Positions 6,723 to 48,264 of a stretch of DNA of 64,000 bases are shown here, one piece after another (position 1 is the first letter of the stretch; every line of letters begins with the position of its first letter). This DNA is from Mycteria americana (lineage: Eukaryota; Chordata; Aves; Ciconiiformes; Ciconiidae): positions 33,527,661-33,591,660 of the forward strand of contig NC_134366.1 in assembly GCF_035582795.1 (NCBI RefSeq). The letters are read 5' to 3'. Position numbers and translations under genes: made by a program. The notes under the pieces were generated by a model. The model was given only the letters and a program-made list of their open reading frames with translations. It was not told the origin of the DNA and did no database searches.

Positions 6723-7145
6723 TCACAGAATCAGAATCACAGAATCATATAGGTTGGAAAAGACCTTTAAGATCATCGAGTCCAACCATAAACCTAATAC
6801 TGCCAAAACCACCACTACACCATGTCTCTAAGCACCTCATCCAAACGTCCTTTAAATACCTCCAGGGATGGCGACGCAACCACTTCCCTGGGCAGCCTGT
6901 TCCAATGCTTGATAACCCTCTCGGTGAAGAAAAATTTCCTAATATCCAGTCTAAACCTCCCCTGGTGCAACTTGAGGCCATTTCCTCTTGTCCTATCACT
7001 TGTTACTTGGGAGAAGAGACCGACCCCCACCTCGCTACAACCTCCTTTCAGGTAGTTGAAGAGAGCGATGAGGTCTCCCCTCAGCCTCCTTTTCTCCAGG
7101 CTAAACAATCCCAGCTCCCTCAGCTGCTCCTCATAAGACTTCATG
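6723..7145 (-). mobile_element. CR1 LINE, 5'-truncated copy with end of ORF2
   Basis: On the plus strand it begins with the reversed CR1 terminal repeat (ACAGAATCAGAATCACAGAA) and continues through GGTTGGAAAAGACCTTTAAG. Read on the minus strand it encodes the C-terminal part of the CR1 ORF2 protein in one open frame (about 6,840-7,130). Typical CR1 wording includes ELGLFSLEKRRLRGDLIALF and HWNRLPREVVASPSLEVFKG. The frame being still open suggests a comparatively young copy. The 5' side is cut near 7,145, so there is no reverse-transcriptase core and it cannot move. Confidence 0.95.
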
Positions 7146-7149
7146 TAAA

Positions 7150-10100
7150 TGCAAACAAATCTAGGGAGGGGATGTTGTGCCAACACCTGCAGAAGACACG
7201 ATTCAGGCAGGCAAGCACTCCCAGGCTGTGCACAGAACCTATATTTGGTCCTTGGCAATGCTGCTGCACTGGTGTCCCGGATGACCTGCTCCCTTGCTAT
7301 TTTTTCCTGACAGAAATCCAATTACCAGCACGATGGTGGCCATGGTTTCCTCCCATGGTCTGGTAGCTCATGTCACCCCACACACTAGCAGGGGTTTCAG
7401 ATGCTTGGCCCCTTCTGGGTTTCTCCTTTCCAGTTTACCCATGTTATTCTCTGACGAGAAAGAAGTCCTGAGCTTACAAGGGACCTCAGGAGCTTCGGTG
7501 GGAGCTGTGCAGGTTGGAGTCTCATCTCACCACTGCTCCCTGGTGCCCTGTGGCATCAGGAGCCATACTGGGAGAGCAGTGTCCTTAGTACCTACCCATC
7601 CAAGGCGATCCAGACAAGGAGGAGAGTGAAGAGTACGTGCTTGCTTTCCCACTCCCTCTCCCACAAGGGATGCAAGAGAGAAATGCACTTGTCGGTCTCA
7701 GCCATCACTGAGTAGGACCACATGGATGGCTTCATTTTGCAGACATAGAGGACACGTCCTCTACCCACTAGAGAGGTGTTGGTGGACTGTATATGCCACC
7801 ATCATCTCCCAGTCAGCAGGAGGAAAGAGGCCAGTGCTGGAACTGCTAATATGACACAGCTGCAGACTGACAGGTAACATTTTGGTACTTGGATCTGTCA
7901 TTCCCATGGCTGCTGGCTGCCAGAAACTCAATTACCTCAGTCCAAGCGTCTCATTTAACAGTTCAACGTTAACGACTGCCACTGCCTCTTACACTCATCG
8001 CTAGCACTTCTGTTGATGGCATTACAAGACTTGAGTGTCTGCTTCCATACCATCCAGCACCCTTCACCCTACGGGACCGCCCGGAAACTGCAAACTGCTC
8101 TGGAATTCCACTAACAGGGAGAAACACACCCATGAACACTGAACTTCTCTGATTTAGGAACACACAGGAATAAAAAAGAAAGATTCGACCCAGAATGAAC
8201 AAATGACTGTATCATGGCAACTTCATAATCAGATGCATTTGCGTTGCAGTCTCTTCCAGTACATCAGTTGCCTGAGATTTTTCTGTTTATTTTTCCCTGA
8301 TGAAGTTTAGGAACATTGCTGACAGGCCAACATAACTCTCTCCATATCATTACTAGTTATTGCTAGGATATTTGCATAATGCTGACAGCCATAAATTATG
8401 CCAGAAGAAATAACAAAACAGCATTGTTTCCAAGTATCCAAGGATATGACCAAAATAAGGTTTGTAGGCAGACCTGTGTTATTAGACCCACTAGTCTAGC
8501 TGGGAAAAATCAATAAGCTTTCAAGTACCTCAGTCCTTCTCCAGGTCCAAAATAGAAGCAGCAACCTTGAAAAAATAAAAACCAATTGAGAACAACTGTG
8601 CTAAAATTTAGTTGGATTTGTATCAATATGACCACCCAAGAGAAAATAGATGGTATCTGCGATACTGAAGGATATTCTAAAGGGAAGTGGGCAGGCAGAT
8701 AATTTATAGTTTGTGGAATAAGTAGGACATGTCAGTGGAATAAAAGGTTAAAAGATGCCACAGAATCTCTCTCTTTTACTGTGCTGATGACCTAAAGTTC
8801 AAATATAGGAGATTCAGACTTTTCCACCTTTACTCAAGGGTCACAGACGGCACTACACTAGCTGGGAAAAAATGGTATTTACCATGTGGCTGGGTGCCCA
8901 TCCCTGCATCAAGTCTGTCCCTTTCTGTCCCTACGGTCCAGGCCCTTGGGATAACGCCAATGCAAAGACATCTCCTGAAAGAGCCTGGAGATGAGACTAT
9001 ACTTCCACAACCAGAAATTTCTCTTGTGTCAACAGATGGAAGCAGTGTATGGATAGATCACACTTTTCCCACCTTTTGAATATAGAAACGTTTTTCTGTG
9101 GTTTTATTGAGACAGTGGGATTCTGGGATTAACAGAAACAATGTTCTATTTCTTCTTGCTATCACAGACTTTGTATCTCCTGCATTTTGCTTTGACTCAA
9201 GACCTTAGTGAATCCAGAAACCTCTGACCCTGTAAAGCTGTTCCAGAAGAAACCATTAAGGCTGATTTCTAATCAAAGGGTACCTCATCCTGTACCCAGC
9301 TGAGAACATCCTGCATTCTCTCTGCCCTCACAAAACACACATAATTCAATAAATCCAACATGGAAACGCCTTCTGCTCCCAGACAGATCACCTCTCACTT
9401 ACTGTGGTATCTCACCTTCCTCTCCCTCACAAGTTGGCCCAGGTCTCCAAAAAGACCGCAAAAACATTTTGTCACCCTCGACTCAACCTCTGGACCTGCA
9501 ATCAAAGCCATCTGCCCTCCCATGCTGCTGGCTGCCGAAGCACCCGTGCAGCGGCACCTCCTGCAGCCCCTGGCCTGGGGGAAGGAAGGGGGATTCCCCC
9601 TTCCCCAGGGGCTGGGGCAGGGACCAAGCACCATTGGTGCCCATCAGACACCCCTGGGTGCCCCTCCAGCCTGCGCACAGCCTCCCTGCTGGGCCCAGGG
9701 GAAGCAGAGCGCATGAATCGCATCTGCTGGCACAATTCCTCTGCTCCTCAGGGAAATCTGCGTCGAGTGCTAAAATAATCACAGCAGCTAGATTTGTAGG
9801 GATGCAGTCTCTAGAGATCCCAAATAGGCCAGCAGCTTGTCAGGGGAAATGCCAGCACCTGGAAACACTGCAAAGACAGAGAGAAAGGAGTATTCAGGAC
9901 CAGTCCCGAGAGAAGTACGGGATACAAAAAACAGGACAGGAAGATAATTTGGAATAACTGCATAAATCAAGGTCACATGCTGTCACTTCTGCACCAAATA
10001 GCACATATGTACTGCTCTCTCACATGCTGCTGCTCTTCCAGTCATATTCAGGTCCTGTTACAGTCAGCAGAGATTGCTTTATCTCTGTTTCTTTCCTTTT

Positions 10101-21957: not shown

Positions 21958-22020
21958 ATGGTGTGCGGGGGCTTCGCCTGCTCCAAGAACTGCCTCTGCG
22001 CCCTCAACCTGCTCTACACG
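21958..22020 (+). CDS. TSPAN13: TSPAN13 coding exon 1
   Basis: Codons 1-21, [20 protein letters not shown] then T. Donor GTGCGT at 22,021. Intron 1 follows and is 12.4 kb, by far the longest in the window. Confidence 0.96.
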
Positions 22021-34000: not shown

Positions 34001-37000
34001 CAGAGCTGTGGAGCGCTATATCCTATTTTCTTTAAATACACTGCCTGTGTTTCAGAAGACATCTGGAATTTTCATTCTTCTTCCGTTCTGTGAATTAAAG
34101 CCGATGATTTTAGCTTATTTGTCAATTCTGTTATAATCCACACACAGTTCGGTGTCTCTAGTCAGGCACAGATAATGCAACATGGCTCGACTTGTAGGTA
34201 GATTAAGTTGTAACAGCTCCACATTAACAGTGTTGAAGAATGTGTGCCTTAAAACATCCGGAACTGAAGTGATCTCTACGATGAAGTGGAGGATTGGTTT
34301 GTTTAGGGTTGAGGTTCTTCTCTTTGCACTGGAAAGGAAAATTGTATCTTTCTAAAAACAACTTTAATGTAAAGAATGAAGCTGTGTGTAGGTTAAGCCT
34401 CTTTTAATATGCAGACTAACTTTTTGTTTTCTCTTCCCTCCAGCTGGTAAGCCTGCTGCTGATTGGAATTGCAGCATGGGGAATCGGCTTCGGCCTCATC
34501 TCTAGTTTCAGAGTTGTTGGAGTGGCAATTGCAGTAGGAATCTTCCTCTTCCTTATTGCCTTAGTCGGATTGATTGGTGCGGTGAAACATCATCAAGTAT
34601 TGCTATTCTTTGTATCCTTCTAATGTATTACAGGGATCGCAACTTGGCTCAAGCTATGTAAACAACCTGCTCTGTCAGCTGAGACTGATGTGGAAGGTGC
34701 TTCAGAAACGGAACAGAAATTCACAATCTTATTTCGGTCAAGTGCAGTCTAAATTAAACTTCCTTCCCATTTAACTTTATTCCAGCTTCCATTTTTCTCC
34801 CTTGTTTGTGCTCTGAAGACAGAAGTGTTCACGTCTCCTCTTTTTGAAAATTAAAATATTTTAATTTTGAGAGCTTTTTACAGTGGGTCACTGTGTCACA
34901 GGTGCCTCTTACTGCGTGTTCAACCCTACACCATGCTAGAGTGTGTGAACTATTAATGTTTAACAGTAGAGAAGGGTGATACTTCCAGATAGCGAGCTGG
35001 TTGTAGCTGGCAGGGGAATGCATTGTGGGTAATACAGGCTGTCAAGAAGCACTTTCTTTTCATACCTAGTCTTTAATTGCAAACCCAGACTAGAAATGAG
35101 CACAGGCCTTCTCAGTGTGCTTTGCTGCCCCTTTATGCCTACTGACACTGTAAGCAGTCTGTGGTGGTGCCTTGCATAACAGAATTGATCTGTTTGGATG
35201 AGAAAAGAGGTTCATCCGATAAAATTCTTAGTTTCTCGTTACGGTCTATGAATAAGTAGTGACCTCCACTTTACAAACAGTTTAGAAGACAGTGCCCAAC
35301 TTTCAAAATGTGATCTTTAGTATCAAAGTTTGTTCTTTTTGTTTTATAGTGTTTCCAGATGCATTAGTCCAAAAGTGTGTGAGGCTATGTTCCAAAAGCA
35401 ACTCTCACTTTTTTTTTAACCTAGGCTAAAGTTATCTTTTGTAATTAATTACAAGACTATGTTGCTGAAGAAAAAAAGGTCTGAATGTGCAATACCCAGA
35501 AAAATATTTTCTTTACTACTTTATTTAAGTGAAGTATCTTGAAATAACAACATGAATCCCTAAAGCTGGAGAAACTGATGGTAGATTTTTCTCTCTCAAA
35601 GCTCCTTTTATTAACCTCTCTGCTCATGTTGTCTTGCTAGGCAAGAAACACCTAACCCAGAAATACCAGCTATGTATAGCAGTAGCTAAAAAGAGATAAT
35701 ATATGGTGATTGAGTTCTGGGAACATTATTTGGGTCATCTTTTCCACATCCAGTCAGAATTTACTTCTGTAGTTCTTTTGTATTGAAGGACCTATTGTTA
35801 TCCAATGAAATAAGGAATGCCATTAGGCATATGTGTTATAAAAGCAAAATTAATTTGAGAGCATATCCTTAACTACTGTTTCCAGTACATGATTATTCTT
35901 TTGCTAGTCTTTATCGTCCAGTTTTCTGTCTCCTGTGCCTGTTTGGCACTAAACAAGGAACAGCAGGTAAGAAAAGTTTCCTGACTTCTCAGTTAATTTA
36001 TAGCATAATACTATAAATATATATGTACATACACAGACACACACCCATATTTATATATAGTCTTCCACAAAATGGGGAGAGCATATTTTAAGAAAATCGG
36101 CATTATCCTTTTAAATAAGGACTAGACCTTAGGCAGTGCTTGGCTCTGGTAGCTAGAAAGAAATACATCTAGGTCCTAAAATGACTTTCACCTGTCTTTG
36201 TTTGTTTGTGTGTTTTTATTGTTTTTTTTTAATTATTATTATTGTTTTGGTTTTAAGCTTCCTGTCTAAGTTTATGGTCACAAGTGTAGCAGCGTGATAT
36301 ATTGACTGTATCATGTGTTCAGCAATTCCAGATAAGCTGATGAAATCTACAGTAATCACAATGTAAAGATGATAAAGCCACTGAATTGTTCATGTGTAAC
36401 TGAAAAGGTCGTAACTACATTAGGAACAGAGGTGACCCTGAAGTGTGAAAGTAAAACCAGCTTCCATGGGGTATGGAGACTAATTCTTACTAGATAAGAA
36501 GCAGGCAAGGGTACAGTGACTAAATAATCAGCTTTTACATGTAAGTGCACTTTTTGTTAAAAGTCTGAGCAGTCCCAGTTAGATTAGTTGCATGTCCCTA
36601 GTGCTCTTGTCGGGTTTAGGAAAAAGAAAGGAAAAAAATTAATTATAACCATGAGTGTGCTGCTGCTAGGTGCTGCTGTTTCATTAGCTATACAGGCTGT
36701 TTGAACATTCAAGTCATTCTTTAATATATTATCCTGTTAGACTTCAGGATCTGAAGGTTTTAGTTAGGGAATTATCAACTTGGCCTAGTATATTGGTTTC
36801 CAATGAAATGCAAAAGAGTTCAGTTAATGTAATATGTATTTGCTTATGCCTTCTAGAGTCAACTTCTAGAGGTGGGATGGAATAACACTAACAGCGCGAG
36901 AACAGATATTGAGAGAAATCTGAATTGTTGTGGATTCAGAGTTTTTGATCCGAATGAAACCTGCTCCTCTGTAAGTTCTTCAAGCATGAAAATACTTAAA

Positions 37001-38709
37001 ACTTTATTGTGTTTGTTCAAATATGTACAACTGTTTTCCTAGGTGCAGAAAGCAGAGTTTTGTAAGAAATGCATAAGGTAGTTGTTACAATGATACTAAG
37101 CTCTTTAGTTAACTTATTGGAAACATAACCACACAGCACCCTGCAAAGTTTGTACTCCATTGTCATTTATATGCTTGCTTTTTTGGAGTCTTTTAAAACT
37201 GATGGAGTTTTGTCTGTGGCTGGCAGCCTTTTATAGAGCTAACTAGATGCTTTCAATCGATGAAGTGTCATCAGAAAACAGAGTGCAATTCTCTGTTTGT
37301 ATCTGCTACAGGATTGTTTTAGAAGTCACCAGTGTCAACCATGTGCACCAATAATAGAAGAATATTCTGGAATGGTGCTGAGATTTGTTGGAGGCATAGG
37401 ACTCTTCTTCAGTTTCACAGAGGTGAGTGAGTAGGATGTTAGAAAATTGAGTGCTTTTTCCCCACTTTTAAGGCTTTGTTTGGTGAAACAATTAATTTTA
37501 GGGGGTTTATTACAGGAACTCTCAGTACTGTCTCAGGAGTCAAAGAATTAATTAGGTCAAATTTTTCCAGACTATCAGCTTGCTTAAGTCTGCCAAAAGG
37601 AGGGCCTGTCTTTATTCAACACTGGGAGTTCTTGCAGCTTTGTTATTTAGACTACAAACTGCAACTAGACACCACATTAAAATGTGGTGCTGTAAAGTTT
37701 CAGTTTTGCAGGAAGTTAGCTATTCAGGTTTACCATTCTCCAAAGTAATAAAAAGAGTGCCGTTGCTTTGTCTTGTTCCCCTGTTCTTCCTGCCTCCCTC
37801 CACCCGCGCACACACACAGTCTTTGGGATTTTTTGGGTTTGGGATTTTTTTTTTTTGTGCCTCCTGTAGTGCAAAGATACAGGTTCATGATGAGCGAACT
37901 GTATTTTAAACACCAGGTTAAAAAGGTCTTTGGCTCTTTGCTTTAGTATCCAGATGATACATATATTTGCTTTTTGATTGGTGGATAAAAATCATCAGAC
38001 CAGATCTTTCATAACTCCACAGTAGAGCATATGAAAATACTCCTCCTGCTGCTTAGTGCAGTTTTCAGAAGGTTTGTAGATATTACAGCAACAGGAGAGA
38101 TACAGCAACTTAAACAGAATCACTCTGACATCTGCCCTCCATTTCTCTGCTAAAGATGTGAAGCACCTGGGAGCGGGGAAGGTGGTTGCGGGGAACGACA
38201 AGACTGGAAAATGTACTAGAAAAATAGCCTTAGAGTTAAGTGGTAACTGTAAAATGAAACAATTTGGAGGATTTGTTTGTCATTATGCTAAAAACAGGTT
38301 TATGAATATTTATCATTTGGGGAGGGAGTAGAAAAATTTAACACTAGACATGCCTATGGGAAATATTTTGCATTGCATTGCAGATACAGTTTTAGCTTTT
38401 TTCTTTTGTTCTTCTCTCTGTTGCTACATGTGAATTCTTTCTGAGAAGGTGCATCCTTTTTTCTAATTAAAAAGCTGGTGTGTGGTTGCACAATTTTAGC
38501 AATAGTAAAATATTCTAAACTTGAGTACTGGAAATTCAGTGTCAGGATTTTATGTTTAAAACAAATTTTGTAAAACTGATGGAAGATGGGGTGGAGACCC
38601 TCTGCTTAATAATATCTTTGGCTTTTGTTTTCAGATTCTGGGAGTCTGGCTGACGTATAGATACAGGAACCAAAAGGATCCCCGTGCAAACCCTAGTGCA
38701 TTTCTTTGA
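21958..38709 (+). CDS. TSPAN13: Tetraspanin-13 (six coding exons)
   Basis: Join of 21958-22020, 34444-34611, 35886-35966, 36857-36970, 37312-37422 and 38635-38709: 612 bases, 203 codons plus stop, against about 204 in mammals. TSPAN13 is a four-pass membrane protein that organises partners in tetraspanin-enriched plasma-membrane domains. The N-terminus has cysteines 3, 8, 12 and 14, likely palmitoylation sites. Membrane segments lie at about 16-37, 44-66, 78-99 and 164-187. The large loop (about 100-162) carries the diagnostic CCG (128-130) and cysteines 140, 144, 150 and 153. Sequons are N113-N-T and N137-E-T. The tail ends in NPSAFL. All introns are phase 0. The start is the first ATG of the recognisable protein, with G at -3 and G at +4. 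Promoter type suggests broad expression. Identification rests on near-complete agreement with the known vertebrate protein and on synteny with AGR2. Confidence 0.97.
22229..22244 (+). repeat. (G)16 homopolymer in TSPAN13 intron 1
   Basis: An uninterrupted run of 16 G inside the CpG island, 209 bases after exon 1. Its length may be an assembly or sequencing estimate. Confidence 0.85.
22381..22405 (+). repeat. (GCCGG)n short tandem repeat
   Basis: Four exact GCCGG units followed by one variant (GCTGG), within the CpG island part of TSPAN13 intron 1. Confidence 0.9.
22737..22758 (+). other. G-quadruplex candidate in TSPAN13 intron 1
   Basis: Three long G runs (8, 7 and 5) separated by single A bases, on the sense strand about 720 bases after exon 1. 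The two longer runs can each supply two G-tracts, so a four-tract quadruplex is possible. Formation is an inference. Confidence 0.6.
23585..23670 (-). mobile_element. CR1 LINE, short 3' fragment in TSPAN13 intron 1
   Basis: Plus-strand reading AGAATCATAGAATAGCCCAG, then GTTGGAAGGGACCTCAAAAG: the reversed terminal repeat and tail of CR1. Only about 85 bases are kept. It sits in antisense orientation to TSPAN13. Confidence 0.9.
23671..29669. other. TSPAN13: TSPAN13 intron 1, middle part
   Basis: Unique AT-rich intron sequence. Small T/G tracts lie near 28,575-28,610 and a T run near 28,958-28,970. A perfect 10-base stem with a 4-base loop lies at 29,470-29,493. No internal gene was recognised. 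Confidence 0.7.
29470..29493 (+). repeat. Perfect inverted repeat (10-base stem, GCTT loop)
   Basis: ACCTTCTTAC at 29,470-29,479 and its exact complement GTAAGAAGGT at 29,484-29,493, with loop GCTT. It is too short for a microRNA precursor and lies deep in TSPAN13 intron 1. Confidence 0.85.
29670..30735 (-). mobile_element. CR1 LINE, about 1 kb old copy in TSPAN13 intron 1
   Basis: Antisense CR1. The tail starts near 29,670 (GGTTGGAAGGGACTTCTGCG). The ORF2 end is visible on the minus strand ([20 protein letters not shown]). Further in are recognisable CR1 blocks: AGTATTTGAGCTGCAGTCTC, CTTCATGAGGTTCCTGTTGG, and the reverse-transcriptase neighbourhood near 30,460-30,520 (GTTGATGAAGATCTTGTGTA). 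The boundary near 30,735 is uncertain. Many substitutions and frame breaks make it one of the oldest copies here. Confidence 0.85.
30740..34443. other. TSPAN13: TSPAN13 intron 1, 3' part
   Basis: AT-rich intron with a TA-rich patch at 31,260-31,292 and a TTTTG repeat at about 33,350-33,370. It ends in a good polypyrimidine tract, CTCTTCCCTCCAG, before exon 2. No other feature recognised. Confidence 0.75.
34444..34611 (+). CDS. TSPAN13: TSPAN13 coding exon 2
   Basis: Codons 22-77, covering the rest of membrane segment 1, the small loop, all of segment 2 and the intracellular turn ([12 protein letters not shown] at its end). The acceptor is a normal CAG. The donor is GTATCCTTC, which fits the minor (U12) spliceosome and not the major one. 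If the intron is retained, the frame adds V-S-F and stops at 34,621-34,623. Confidence 0.97.
34612..35885 (+). other. TSPAN13: TSPAN13 intron 2, U12-type (minor spliceosome)
   Basis: Donor GTATCCTTC at 34,612-34,620 matches the U12 consensus RTATCCTTT in its first eight bases. The major consensus GTRAGT is not met beyond GTA. The 3' end has TATCCTTAACTAC at 35,864-35,876, which fits the U12 branch-site consensus TTCCTTAAC. The branch adenosine lies about 13 bases before the AG, within the 10-16 base spacing known for U12 introns. The polypyrimidine tract before the acceptor is short (CTGTTTCCAG), also usual for U12 introns. Length 1,274 bases, phase 0. Confidence 0.9.
35886..35966 (+). CDS. 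TSPAN13: TSPAN13 coding exon 3
   Basis: Codons 78-104: [20 protein letters not shown] and the start of the large loop. This is membrane segment 3. Donor GTAAGA. Confidence 0.97.
36857..36970 (+). CDS. TSPAN13: TSPAN13 coding exon 4
   Basis: Codons 105-142, the first half of the large extracellular loop. It holds EVGWNNT with a glycosylation sequon, the tetraspanin signature NCCG (127-130) and a second sequon N-E-T (137-139). Donor GTAAGT. Confidence 0.97.
37312..37422 (+). CDS. TSPAN13: TSPAN13 coding exon 5
   Basis: Codons 143-179: the rest of the large loop with cysteines 144, 150 and 153 (CQPCAPII), then most of membrane segment 4 ([13 protein letters not shown]). Acceptor ACAG, donor GTGAGT. 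Confidence 0.97.
38635..38709 (+). CDS. TSPAN13: TSPAN13 coding exon 6 (terminal)
   Basis: Codons 180-203 and TGA: the end of membrane segment 4 and the cytoplasmic tail, [20 protein letters not shown] then SAFL. Confidence 0.97.
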
Positions 38710-44482: not shown

Positions 44483-44532
44483 TTACAGTTCAGTCTTCAG
44501 GAGTTTCAGCGCTTTCTGCATATTTGAAAGCA
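44483..44532 (-). CDS. AGR2: AGR2 coding exon 7 (terminal)
   Basis: Codons 156 (part) to 171 and [19 protein letters not shown]. It ends in the ER-retention motif KTEL. Acceptor TTTCTAG. Confidence 0.95.
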
Positions 44533-47500
44533 CTAGAAATGAAATATTCATACATGTTATTTTTGTTGCAACTTCCCCTGCCAGTGACTACAAATACTGT
44601 AGAGAAAATGTCATTATTAAAGCTTTTGCCCACATGCCTATTGCTATATGGATTCTGATGCACTGCGCTCTACAGCCTCTTCCAAGCATTTTGTGACCAC
44701 CATCTGTTTAATTTTGACTGGTGAGAACATACATCCCTTATTGCAAACACACGGGCATTTGCAGGGGAGAGATGGGAGCGGTGACTGTGGCACCCAACCC
44801 TTCCCTGCTCCCAGGTTTCCTGCCCTGGCCTGGCAGGGCTCCTGTGCAAGAGTTCTCACCGTTGCTTACAGTGAATGCTGCTGAATTATGCAAGTTCCTA
44901 CTGACATATGCTTTCTTTTAAAAGAGATGGATGTTTAAGGCTCCAGGGCTCTGCCATCATTCTTTTCACCTCACTGAGTTTAAGTCTAGCATCCTGTTTA
45001 ATTTTAATCCCAGTTAACTGTCTTTCAGCAAGTACTGATTGCTTAGGTCTGTAATGCCTGGTGTTATTCTTTGTCACATGAAAAATGTGACTTCTTTCAG
45101 AATATTTTCAGAATATGTCAGAATACGCTACTTACACAATGAAATGTCAGAGGGCTCGTATGCATAGAGACGGTTTGAGTATCTTCCAGTAATATCTGCT
45201 CTCACAGTCAGGGAAGGATCTGGAAAAAAAGGATGACAGAAGTTGTAGAGGACAGGATTAACCTTCAAGCAGAAGGAAATAAACCTTTCTGCACCTCCGC
45301 TTGCTTCCTAAATGTTTCTGCAAGACACATCTGCTTCCACTAACAACCAAGAGATCGTTCTTCTACACAGTCACTGACATTTCCATTTGAAGTGTTGTGT
45401 TTGCAGGTTTATTAGGAAGGGGATAGGTTTAATTCTGATCGATGCTGATCAGCCTTGCACCCTGTGCCACTGCATAGTACCTCAATTAACTCTATGAGCT
45501 GAGGCGGCTTTCAGGCTACAAATGTTATTAAAAAAAGAAATAATAAAGGGAGAGATAATATGGCAGTTGCTTTGGTCTGTTGAAAATGGTCATTGTGACC
45601 TCGATTGATCAAGGTACGTGTTAATGATGCATGGTGCAGTATGTGAGGCTACGTATCTCTTCTGGGAGAGGGAATACCTGGATGCATGCGTGGCCACTGA
45701 TACACCTCCAAAACAGAAATGCTTTGGAGGGGTTTGGGCAGGTTAGTGGGGCACAGAACTGAGTACCGAGCTTTGAAAATTGGCCCCTGAAGCACCCTGG
45801 GTCACTGCTGTTCCTGTGACGTCCGCGATTGTGTTACAAAGAGAAACCTGTCAGTTTTACAGTATTTCTAGAGACAGGAGGATGAGCAAGGCTGAGCCAG
45901 TGCCTACCCATTCCAGGGACTGTGGCATCATGTCATTTCGATGACACGATGGAAGAAATTACATCATCTGTGGAATCCTAGAGGGAGGAATGCTAGACCT
46001 GTGAAGCTAATGACCCAGCTGGGGTTGCTTTGAAATTGCATCCAACAAAACCAACTAGAAATTTTATATTTCACATGGAATAAATTCCTGTTAATTAGCC
46101 CGAGGATTTGAGATTCATGGCACAGCAGGGACTTCGATCTGAGGTCAGCTTTGATGCTTGAGATACTCACCTATGAACAAAATCCGAGGGACATACTGGC
46201 CGTCAGGTGAAAGATTCTTGTCTGTAGTTTCATACTTAAAGAAAACAGATCAGGTTCCCAGTCAAGGAGGGCATGTTACATAAATCTTTTTCTTCTTCAT
46301 TGTACTTTGTGTTATGAAATAGAGCTTAAATAATACATTTTGCAGTGTAAGAAATTCACTGTCTAGGATGCAATCTTTTAACAGCTGGAGTTGCAAATCG
46401 ATAACAATAGTTAATGTTATTATTAAACTTTAAATTCCCTCATATTTTGAAGTTATGATAGCTACAGACAAAAGACACATTACTAAATCTATTATGCTTC
46501 AGCACTGGCTATTTTCCTAGCCAACCCTAGCTATTAAAGTGACTTATTATAGCTAGAGAAGCCGTAATTAAAAATAGAACTTTACTGCTTTCACTTAATG
46601 AAGTGTAAATGGGAAACTTACCACAAGGTTCAGGAGAATGAATTTTTCAGCCAATTTCTGTACGTCTTTATGTTCAGCAAAGACCTTCTTGAGTGCTAGA
46701 GTGGAAACAAATGGGAATGAAAGGAGAATCAAATTGAGAATTCCCAGTTTACGATTGCAGCAAATGAAGATTTTAAGTTCATTCCTCTGGAAGATGATCA
46801 ACTCATTTATATTCTGTGGTAAAGAGTAAGTGTAATGGTAAAAAATGTCCCTCCCTCCGTCAGATAGTGCCGCTCTCAAATTTGTCTGCTCGAGCTTGAT
46901 GTTGAGCATTTGACCCTTTAAACCTCCTAGTCTGCTATTGCAGTTTCGGGCTCCAGTTCTTAAAGGCACAGAAAATTCAGTACAGAGGCGTAGGACTTCA
47001 GCCTGAGATGTTTGAGAGGATTTTAATGCTTGTACAAAGATTCTTCTGGAGTTACTGGAGCTATGGATGGATGCAAAGGTCTCGCCATGTGGAGGAAGGG
47101 CCCTTGGGTAAATTCAGAAACACTGGGAAAAGGGCAGTCCCAGTTACCAGAAATCCCCCAAAAGCTCAGTTTCAGCCTGGTTTGACTGAGTTCCTGGCTG
47201 GATTCAGTCTCAATCATCAGCGATACTGAAAGCTGAGTACGTCCTTTCCAATAAATGACTGTTTTTCACTACTCCTGGTCTTGCTATTGGTTTTGGCTGA
47301 TTGTGACGCAAACCGAAACCAGATTTGCCACAGGTCAAAACCTGCTGACCTGTCCTCATTGCTGTATGCTTTCTGTATCATGTAATACCGAATTGCCATT
47401 GCTATTTTATTTCTGCGCATTGGAAAATACCTACGCGGGACAGCGACTGGAGCACTCCGCGTCCTTGTGCAAGTTAGCATTTCGCTAAGGCTTACTCAGC

Positions 47501-48264
47501 AAGCAGAATGGTGGCTGCCTGGTTGTTCGGGTTTTTTTAAGCAGCAACCAAAACCCGGATTATTTTCTTTTTTTTTTTTTTTTTTTTTTGCGTGCAAAGG
47601 GATTGATTACCTTGGCTGTGTGGGCAGTCGTCCAAGTGGTGGATAACCATCAGGGGCTTGTTGCTGGAAAAGAAGAGTCCTCGTTAGCGCCTCGGGGGGG
47701 CGCCAGGGGGCGCTAGGGGGCGCGGAGCGGAGCGGGGCGCGGAGCGGGGCGCGGAGCGGAGCGGGGCGGGGCGGTACCTGTGCTTGGAGCGGAAGAGGGC
47801 TTCCTCGTACGTCTGCGTCCAGATGAGCTGGTCACCCCAGCCTGCGGGGGAAGGACAGGCGGCGCGTTATAAGCGGGGCCGGCGGTGCGCGGGTTCGCGT
47901 CCCGCCCCCTGCCCGCGTCTGCCGGGAAGGGCTTTGAACAGACGCGCTGCCAGGGGGCTTTAAATCAGGGATAAAGGGGGAGGGGGTGCTAGGAAATACT
48001 AGAAAATGTGTTTGCAGAATGAGTTGCAAGAAAATTAATTTATTACAACAGCATAGGATTCAAAACTTTAGCAGATTGCACTTCTCTTTTAATTTGGGTT
48101 GGTTTTTTGTGGTTTTTTGTTTTGTTTTGTTTTTTACCTCTAGAGAGCGTCTGAGGCAGTTTTGGTTTAGCGGTAGTCTCCTTTGTCTCCTTGCCCACAT
48201 CCTTTGCCAGAGCACAGGAGATGGCAACGAGCAGCAGGAACATGGGCACGTAACTCTTCTCCAT
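44483..48264 (-). CDS. AGR2: Anterior gradient protein 2, PDI family (seven coding exons)
   Basis: Minus-strand join, 5' to 3': 48264-48138, 47841-47778, 47663-47611, 46695-46622, 46234-46171, 45219-45136, 44532-44483. This gives 516 bases, 171 codons plus stop (human 175). AGR2 is an endoplasmic-reticulum disulfide isomerase-like protein needed for mucin folding in secretory epithelia; it is also found secreted. The signal peptide is about residues 1-20 ([20 protein letters not shown]), followed by a Lys/Thr-rich disordered stretch to about 42. One thioredoxin fold follows, with a single-cysteine active site CPHS (77-80), the conserved EALF dimer-contact region (56-59), the cis-proline stretch YVPR (120-123) and the ER-retention tail KTEL (168-171). 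All junctions are GT-AG and codon phases close exactly. A separate non-coding first exon lies at about 49,934-49,985. AGR3 was considered; the KTEL tail and PKLPQTLSR stretch favour AGR2. Confidence 0.97.
45136..45219 (-). CDS. AGR2: AGR2 coding exon 6
   Basis: Encodes [20 protein letters not shown] then YEPSDISL, the most conserved block of the AGR family. Acceptor TTTCCAG, donor GTAAGT. Confidence 0.96.
45926..45951 (-). repeat. Inverted repeat in AGR2 intron (11-base stem, one mismatch)
   Basis: CATCATGTCAT, TTCG, ATGACACGATG on the plus strand. In the AGR2 transcript the loop would read CGAA. It lies between coding exons 5 and 6. Confidence 0.8.
46171..46234 (-). CDS. AGR2: AGR2 coding exon 5
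   Basis: Encodes [20 protein letters not shown] then I, including the cis-proline loop. Acceptor CTTTAAG, donor GTGAGT. Confidence 0.96.
46622..46695 (-). CDS. AGR2: AGR2 coding exon 4
   Basis: Encodes [20 protein letters not shown] then LLNLV, the helix and strand after the active site. Acceptor CACTCTAG (weak pyrimidine tract), donor GTAAGT. Confidence 0.96.
47611..47663 (-). CDS. AGR2: AGR2 coding exon 3 (active site)
   Basis: Encodes [18 protein letters not shown] with the single-cysteine CPHS motif. Only 53 bases. A run of 22 A on the sense strand (47,589-47,568) starts 21 bases after the donor GTAATC. Confidence 0.95.
47680..47935. promoter_or_regulatory. Small internal CpG-rich patch around AGR2 exon 2, with CTCF-like motifs
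   Basis: About 250 bases of very high GC and CpG content in an AT-rich neighbourhood. At 47,703-47,723 CCAGGGGGCGCTAGGGGGCG contains two tandem copies resembling the CTCF core (AGGGGGCGC). Next to it is a tandem array of GGAGCGGGGCGC-like units (47,722-47,775). An insulator or internal promoter role is inference. Confidence 0.5.
47778..47841 (-). CDS. AGR2: AGR2 coding exon 2
   Basis: Encodes [20 protein letters not shown] then H. It is noticeably GC-rich (TACGAGGAAGCCCTCTTCCG) and lies inside a local CpG-dense patch. The donor GTACCG is weak. The intron to exon 3 is only 114 bases. Confidence 0.95.
48106..48136 (-). repeat. (TTTTG)n simple repeat next to AGR2 splice donor
   Basis: Several TTTTG-like units on the plus strand (CAAAA on the AGR2 sense strand). 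They begin within a few bases of the exon donor. Confidence 0.8.
48138..48264 (-). CDS. AGR2: AGR2 coding exon 1 (second exon of the gene)
   Basis: Codons 1-42 and one base of codon 43: signal peptide and the charged linker ending PKLPQTLSR. Eight bases of 5' UTR (48,272-48,265, GAGCAGCC) precede the ATG, after the acceptor CTCTTCCAG. Donor GGTAAAA. The frame stays open upstream of the ATG, but the acceptor site and the family's N-terminus fix the start. Confidence 0.95.

Follow-up and report, generated by a model that had tools for sequence, protein, structure and literature searches.

The question raised by this locus is whether the second intron of the gene TSPAN13 of Mycteria americana is removed by the minor spliceosome, the initial annotation having read this intron as U12-type. 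The signals found in the window (the whole stretch of 64,000 nucleotides that was analysed) and the published orthologues support this reading. With a probability of about 0.97, we consider TSPAN13 intron 2 to be an ordinary U12-type GT-AG intron that has been conserved since ancient times, because of the presence of both U12 signals at the right spacing, the poor major-type donor, the complementarity with the snRNAs, the signals of the paralogue TSPAN31 and the class published for the human and fly introns.

The TSPAN13 model built from the window contains six coding exons, all with lengths that are multiples of three, and encodes 203 amino acids in an unbroken frame. The product matches the Pfam family Tetraspanin (3.2e-20). 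The names TSPAN13, TSPAN31 and AGR2 are presumed from the initial annotation and from the human sequences, Pfam confirming the families only. The features of the gene are as follows (exons from the window exon model).

21958..22020, plus strand: TSPAN13 coding exon 1
34444..34611, plus strand: TSPAN13 exon 2, 168 nt, ending in ...VLLFF
34612..35885, plus strand: TSPAN13 intron 2, probable U12-type GT-AG intron, phase 0 (between codons), 1274 nt (exon model and intron scoring)
34612..34620, plus strand: U12-type donor GTATCCTTC (consensus match)
35866..35873, plus strand: U12-type branch site TCCTTAAC, with the branch A at 35872 (consensus match)
35884..35885, plus strand: acceptor AG of intron 2 (sequence)
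35886..35966, plus strand: TSPAN13 exon 3, 81 nt
36857..36970, plus strand: TSPAN13 exon 4
37312..37422, plus strand: TSPAN13 exon 5
38635..38709, plus strand: TSPAN13 exon 6, with the stop

The U12 class was assigned by matching the consensus sequences [AG]TATCCTT[TC] for the donor and TCCTTRAY for the branch site. The scoring covered 11 introns of the window, namely the five introns of TSPAN13 and the six of AGR2. The donor of TSPAN13 intron 2, for which a match over the first eight bases had been claimed, follows the U12 consensus exactly at 9/9 positions. The branch site was also correctly described: it matches the consensus at 8/8 positions, and its A is separated by 13 nt from the last base of the intron. 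This short distance fits the optimum of 11-13 nt reported between branch site and acceptor in U12-type introns (PMC6717393), which supports the U12 class. One characteristic of the intron is a point against it, namely the phase 0; this phase is under-represented among U12-type introns (Moyer et al. 2020, PMC7367187).

A good major-type donor is absent at the junction of exon 2. As had been said of its fit to GTRAGT, the donor is poor, with 3/8 positions of the major donor, and its U1 duplex reaches -1.3 kcal/mol versus -5.4 to -12.5 kcal/mol for the 10 other introns of the window (values calculated with a piece of U1). In the interval 34444-34900, two GTs only, at 34447 and 34697, reach at least 7/9 to the major donor. 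These observations weigh against the explanation that the major spliceosome removes the intron despite its U12-like ends (a hybrid or converted intron), as does the U12 class given to the human and fly orthologues (PMC2831892). Two features speak for such an explanation, the GT-AG termini and a pyrimidine content of 0.76 ahead of the acceptor, which is fair and usable by a U2 acceptor; we regard the explanation as very improbable.

The other gene modelled in the window provides a comparison for the two signals.

44483-48264, minus strand: AGR2, seven coding exons, product of 171 amino acids with a thioredoxin-like domain (exon model and Pfam; name presumed from the human protein)
46261-46268, minus strand: motif TCCTTGAC, identical to the U12 branch-site consensus, in AGR2 intron 4, 27 nt from the intron end (motif scan)

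The window also contains, at 6818-7321 on the minus strand, an open frame that resembles the terminal part of the reading frame of CR1-type retroelements.

The co-occurrence of the hallmarks had been claimed for one intron only, and indeed no other intron modelled in the window, among the remaining four of TSPAN13 and the six of AGR2 (10 introns), displays both U12 signals together. Taken separately, each signal is less informative. On the plus strand of the window, GTATCCTT[TC] occurs once; on both strands, there are four occurrences of the looser [AG]TATCCTT and six of TCCTTRAY. In the genome of 1.35 Gb, GTATCCTTC is found 3614 times on one strand and 3636 times on the other (7250 in total), a count below that of its reversed control (5666 + 6052). 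TSPAN13 intron 5 contains a branch-like word at 7/8, located 25 nt before the intron end. In AGR2 intron 4, the exact branch-site consensus accompanies the donor GTAAGTTTC, a plain GTAAGT with 7/8 positions of the major donor and 6/9 of the U12 donor, and is most likely due to chance. From the genome count and from this AGR2 motif, it follows that a single motif is weak evidence and is not diagnostic. One may ask whether the U12-like motifs of TSPAN13 intron 2 themselves coincide by chance in an intron that is ordinary in other respects, each of them being able to arise alone in this way. Under a first-order model of the window, the probability is 1.4e-4 for a GT donor with the full U12 motif and 9.3e-4 for an exact branch site with its A at a distance of 9-18 nt, hence a joint chance of 1.3e-7 per intron. 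The coincidence is moreover already contradicted by the orthologues (PMC2831892) and by the paralogue TSPAN31, whose donor is identical in sequence and place, and we hold it to be the least probable of the explanations, with hardly any weight left.

This paralogue was found in the same genome (TSPAN31 intron 2 at L053:1321-1752; G000:C220:2391200-2394200). Its intron 2, of 432 nt, also looks U12-type: the donor is GTATCCTTC (9/9), at the same exon end as in TSPAN13 (...LFF|), and the branch site CCCTTGAC matches at 7/8 with its A 14 nt from the end. The pair of U12 signals is absent from the four other introns of TSPAN31. In both genes the end of exon 2 corresponds to position 78 of the Pfam Tetraspanin profile, the single exons scoring below the family cut-off.

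The genes of the minor snRNAs are present in the genome above the Rfam cut-offs, with one match each for U11, U12 and U4atac and three for U6atac (best U6atac match at 134 bits in a search of the 1.35-Gb genome). In a fixed register, the donor of TSPAN13 intron 2 forms 5/6 pairs with the AAAGGA of U6atac and 4/5 pairs with the 5' end of U11, and the donor of TSPAN31 intron 2 displays the same counts. The other 14 of the 16 donors scored form at most 3/6 pairs with U6atac and at most 3/5 with U11. The base +9 of the TSPAN13 donor is a C, mismatched to both U6atac and U11, and this constitutes a point against the U12 reading. The branch site forms 7/7 pairs with the U12 snRNA encoded in this genome when one purine is bulged out; the branch-like motif of AGR2 intron 4 also pairs at 7/7, so that U12 pairing alone does not discriminate. 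The U11 duplex energies (calculated with the 5' end of U11) do not single out TSPAN13 intron 2 (-4.0), stronger values being obtained for AGR2 intron 2 (-8.3) and TSPAN13 intron 1 (-7.0); they are non-discriminating and were therefore dropped as support. The U6atac duplex energies are -5.1 for TSPAN13 intron 2 and -5.4 for TSPAN31 intron 2, and the remaining 14 donors range from -4.6 to +3.1. The U6atac energies thus separate the U12-like donors narrowly, and the fixed-register pair counts separate them better.

U11/U12 would recognise the donor and the branch site of TSPAN13 intron 2, and U6atac would then take the place of U11. The minor spliceosome would remove this intron and the major spliceosome the other four. 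A failed removal would lead either to a truncated frame of 80 amino acids by retention, or to exon 1 being spliced by the major spliceosome to a site in exon 3 or beyond it.

The first of these outcomes agrees with the three residues and stop that had been predicted, since the retained intron adds V-S-F-stop and gives an 80-aa product. It had further been proposed that TSPAN13 output could depend on the minor spliceosome, a dependence that is supported for the fly orthologue and may hold for Mycteria americana. In ovaries lacking Miso, a U11/U12-associated protein that acts as a minor-splicing factor in the fly, RNAs with retained minor introns increase for the 14 minor-intron genes measured, and 8 of the 12 detected proteins of minor-intron genes decrease, including Tsp97E, the fly orthologue (PMC12084885). 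The available text of the same study gives no retention figure for Tsp97E itself; it reports more cryptic splicing in this gene, from the donor of intron 1 into exon 3, at either of two sites (PMC12084885). A dependence is thus favoured by Tsp97E under Miso loss, and a strong effect at the RNA level is opposed by the fly U6atac mutant, where none of the five Tsp97E array probes changed (0/5; PMC2952598). In that mutant study most of the 19 genes were little changed on arrays, and RT-PCR revealed an increase of unspliced U12 introns for the tested genes of each category (PMC2952598).

Because the fly shows cryptic splicing from exon 1 to exon 3, simple retention is not the only failure to be expected in TSPAN13. 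Exon 3 contains five AGs, its own last two bases included. The two that end at 35907 and 35921 are preceded by the stretches richest in pyrimidines (0.68 and 0.74, moderately rich), which makes them candidate cryptic acceptors. Exon 1 joined after the AG at 35921 would be in frame, and joined after the AG at 35907 would be out of frame. A joining of exon 1 to exon 4 would remain in frame, all six coding exons being multiples of three, and would give a product of 120 amino acids without exons 2 and 3.

The initial annotation had left open whether the intron was already catalogued as U12-type. It is: intron 2 of human TSPAN13 and of fly Tsp97E is listed as U12-type GT-AG by Lin et al. 2010 (Table 2, PMC2831892). 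Gene, intron number and class are therefore all in the literature, and the intron is a known minor intron, not a new finding. In the same work, 156 of the 180 vertebrate intron clusters are U12 in all eight lineages, in a set that includes chicken, and the main text as available displays no bird entry for TSPAN13, chicken included (PMC2831892). The word TSPAN is absent from the main texts of PMC7367187, PMC6717393 and PMC6865273. In the literature search, no match linked TSPAN31 with U12; TSPAN31 may well be listed in supplementary tables or in the databases U12DB, MIDB and IAOD.

What this genome adds to published knowledge is solely the contrast within the tetraspanin family. Besides TSPAN13 and TSPAN31, which were found separately, the genome contains at least 30 Pfam tetraspanin matches, and a donor of exon 2 was readable in 15 of them at about the position of TSPAN13 intron 2. 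All 15 donors are in phase 0, and a U12-like donor is not among them (they match 2 to 6 of 9 positions for U12 and 5 to 8 of 9 for the major donor). These 15 matches (L014-L017, L019, L021-L025, L027, L030, L033, L037 and L038), in which the donors only were read, are known by family and not as named genes. Eleven are above the family cut-off, and the remaining four (L030, L033, L037 and L038) fall short of it, at E < 0.001. In L017 and L019, where the match continues beyond the boundary, the donor position was set by visual inspection; in the other 13 the donor lies at most 6 nt from the match end. The matches of L017 and L038 contain a stop. The matches left out are L009-L013 (five), which run through the position, L018 and L026, with an unclear boundary, and L020, L028, L029, L031, L032, L034, L035 and L036 (eight), where later parts of the profile are matched.

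Garcia-Espana et al. 2009 (PMC2650405) count intron 2 among the phase-0 positions that are ancient and shared by the tetraspanin groups. According to the same authors, TSPAN13 and TSPAN31 belong to one group with introns 1, 2, 4a and 6, and 3a in tunicates and vertebrates; we infer that the five introns of TSPAN13 in the window fit this pattern. The word U12 is absent from the available main text of that study (PMC2650405). If the position of intron 2 is homologous across tetraspanins, the class has changed at least once, and the minor signals of TSPAN13 and TSPAN31 versus the 15 major-type donors suggest an old class switch within the family. Phase-0 U12-type introns have been proposed to convert preferentially to U2-type (Moyer et al. 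2020, PMC7367187), and this proposal, with the phase-0 bias, would fit a conversion in the other tetraspanin branches. Tentatively, and at somewhat short of an even chance, intron 2 of the ancestral tetraspanin may have belonged to the U12 class and converted to major in the CD63-like and TSPAN15-like branches, TSPAN13 and TSPAN31 being the relic. If true, this would represent, within one family, the U12-to-U2 conversion proposed for phase-0 introns. One more genome confirms an intron listed as minor-class in human and fly, and two minor members versus 15 major ones, in the same phase and at a corresponding position, offer a compact case on how, and in which direction, the class of an intron changes.

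Compared with known systems, TSPAN13 intron 2 of Mycteria americana is identical to that of human TSPAN13 in gene, intron number, termini and class, in another species (PMC2831892). Drosophila Tsp97E (CG6323) provides an orthologous gene with an orthologous U12-type intron 2 (PMC2831892, PMC2952598, PMC12084885); it is listed with four introns, whereas TSPAN13 of Mycteria has five. TSPAN31 intron 2 resembles that of TSPAN13 in its exon end, phase and nine-base donor, and differs from it by its length (432 nt versus 1274 nt) and by one mismatch in the branch site. The failure products of Tsp97E in the fly include the use of cryptic sites in exon 3 (PMC12084885), the exon that carries the candidate cryptic acceptors in TSPAN13.
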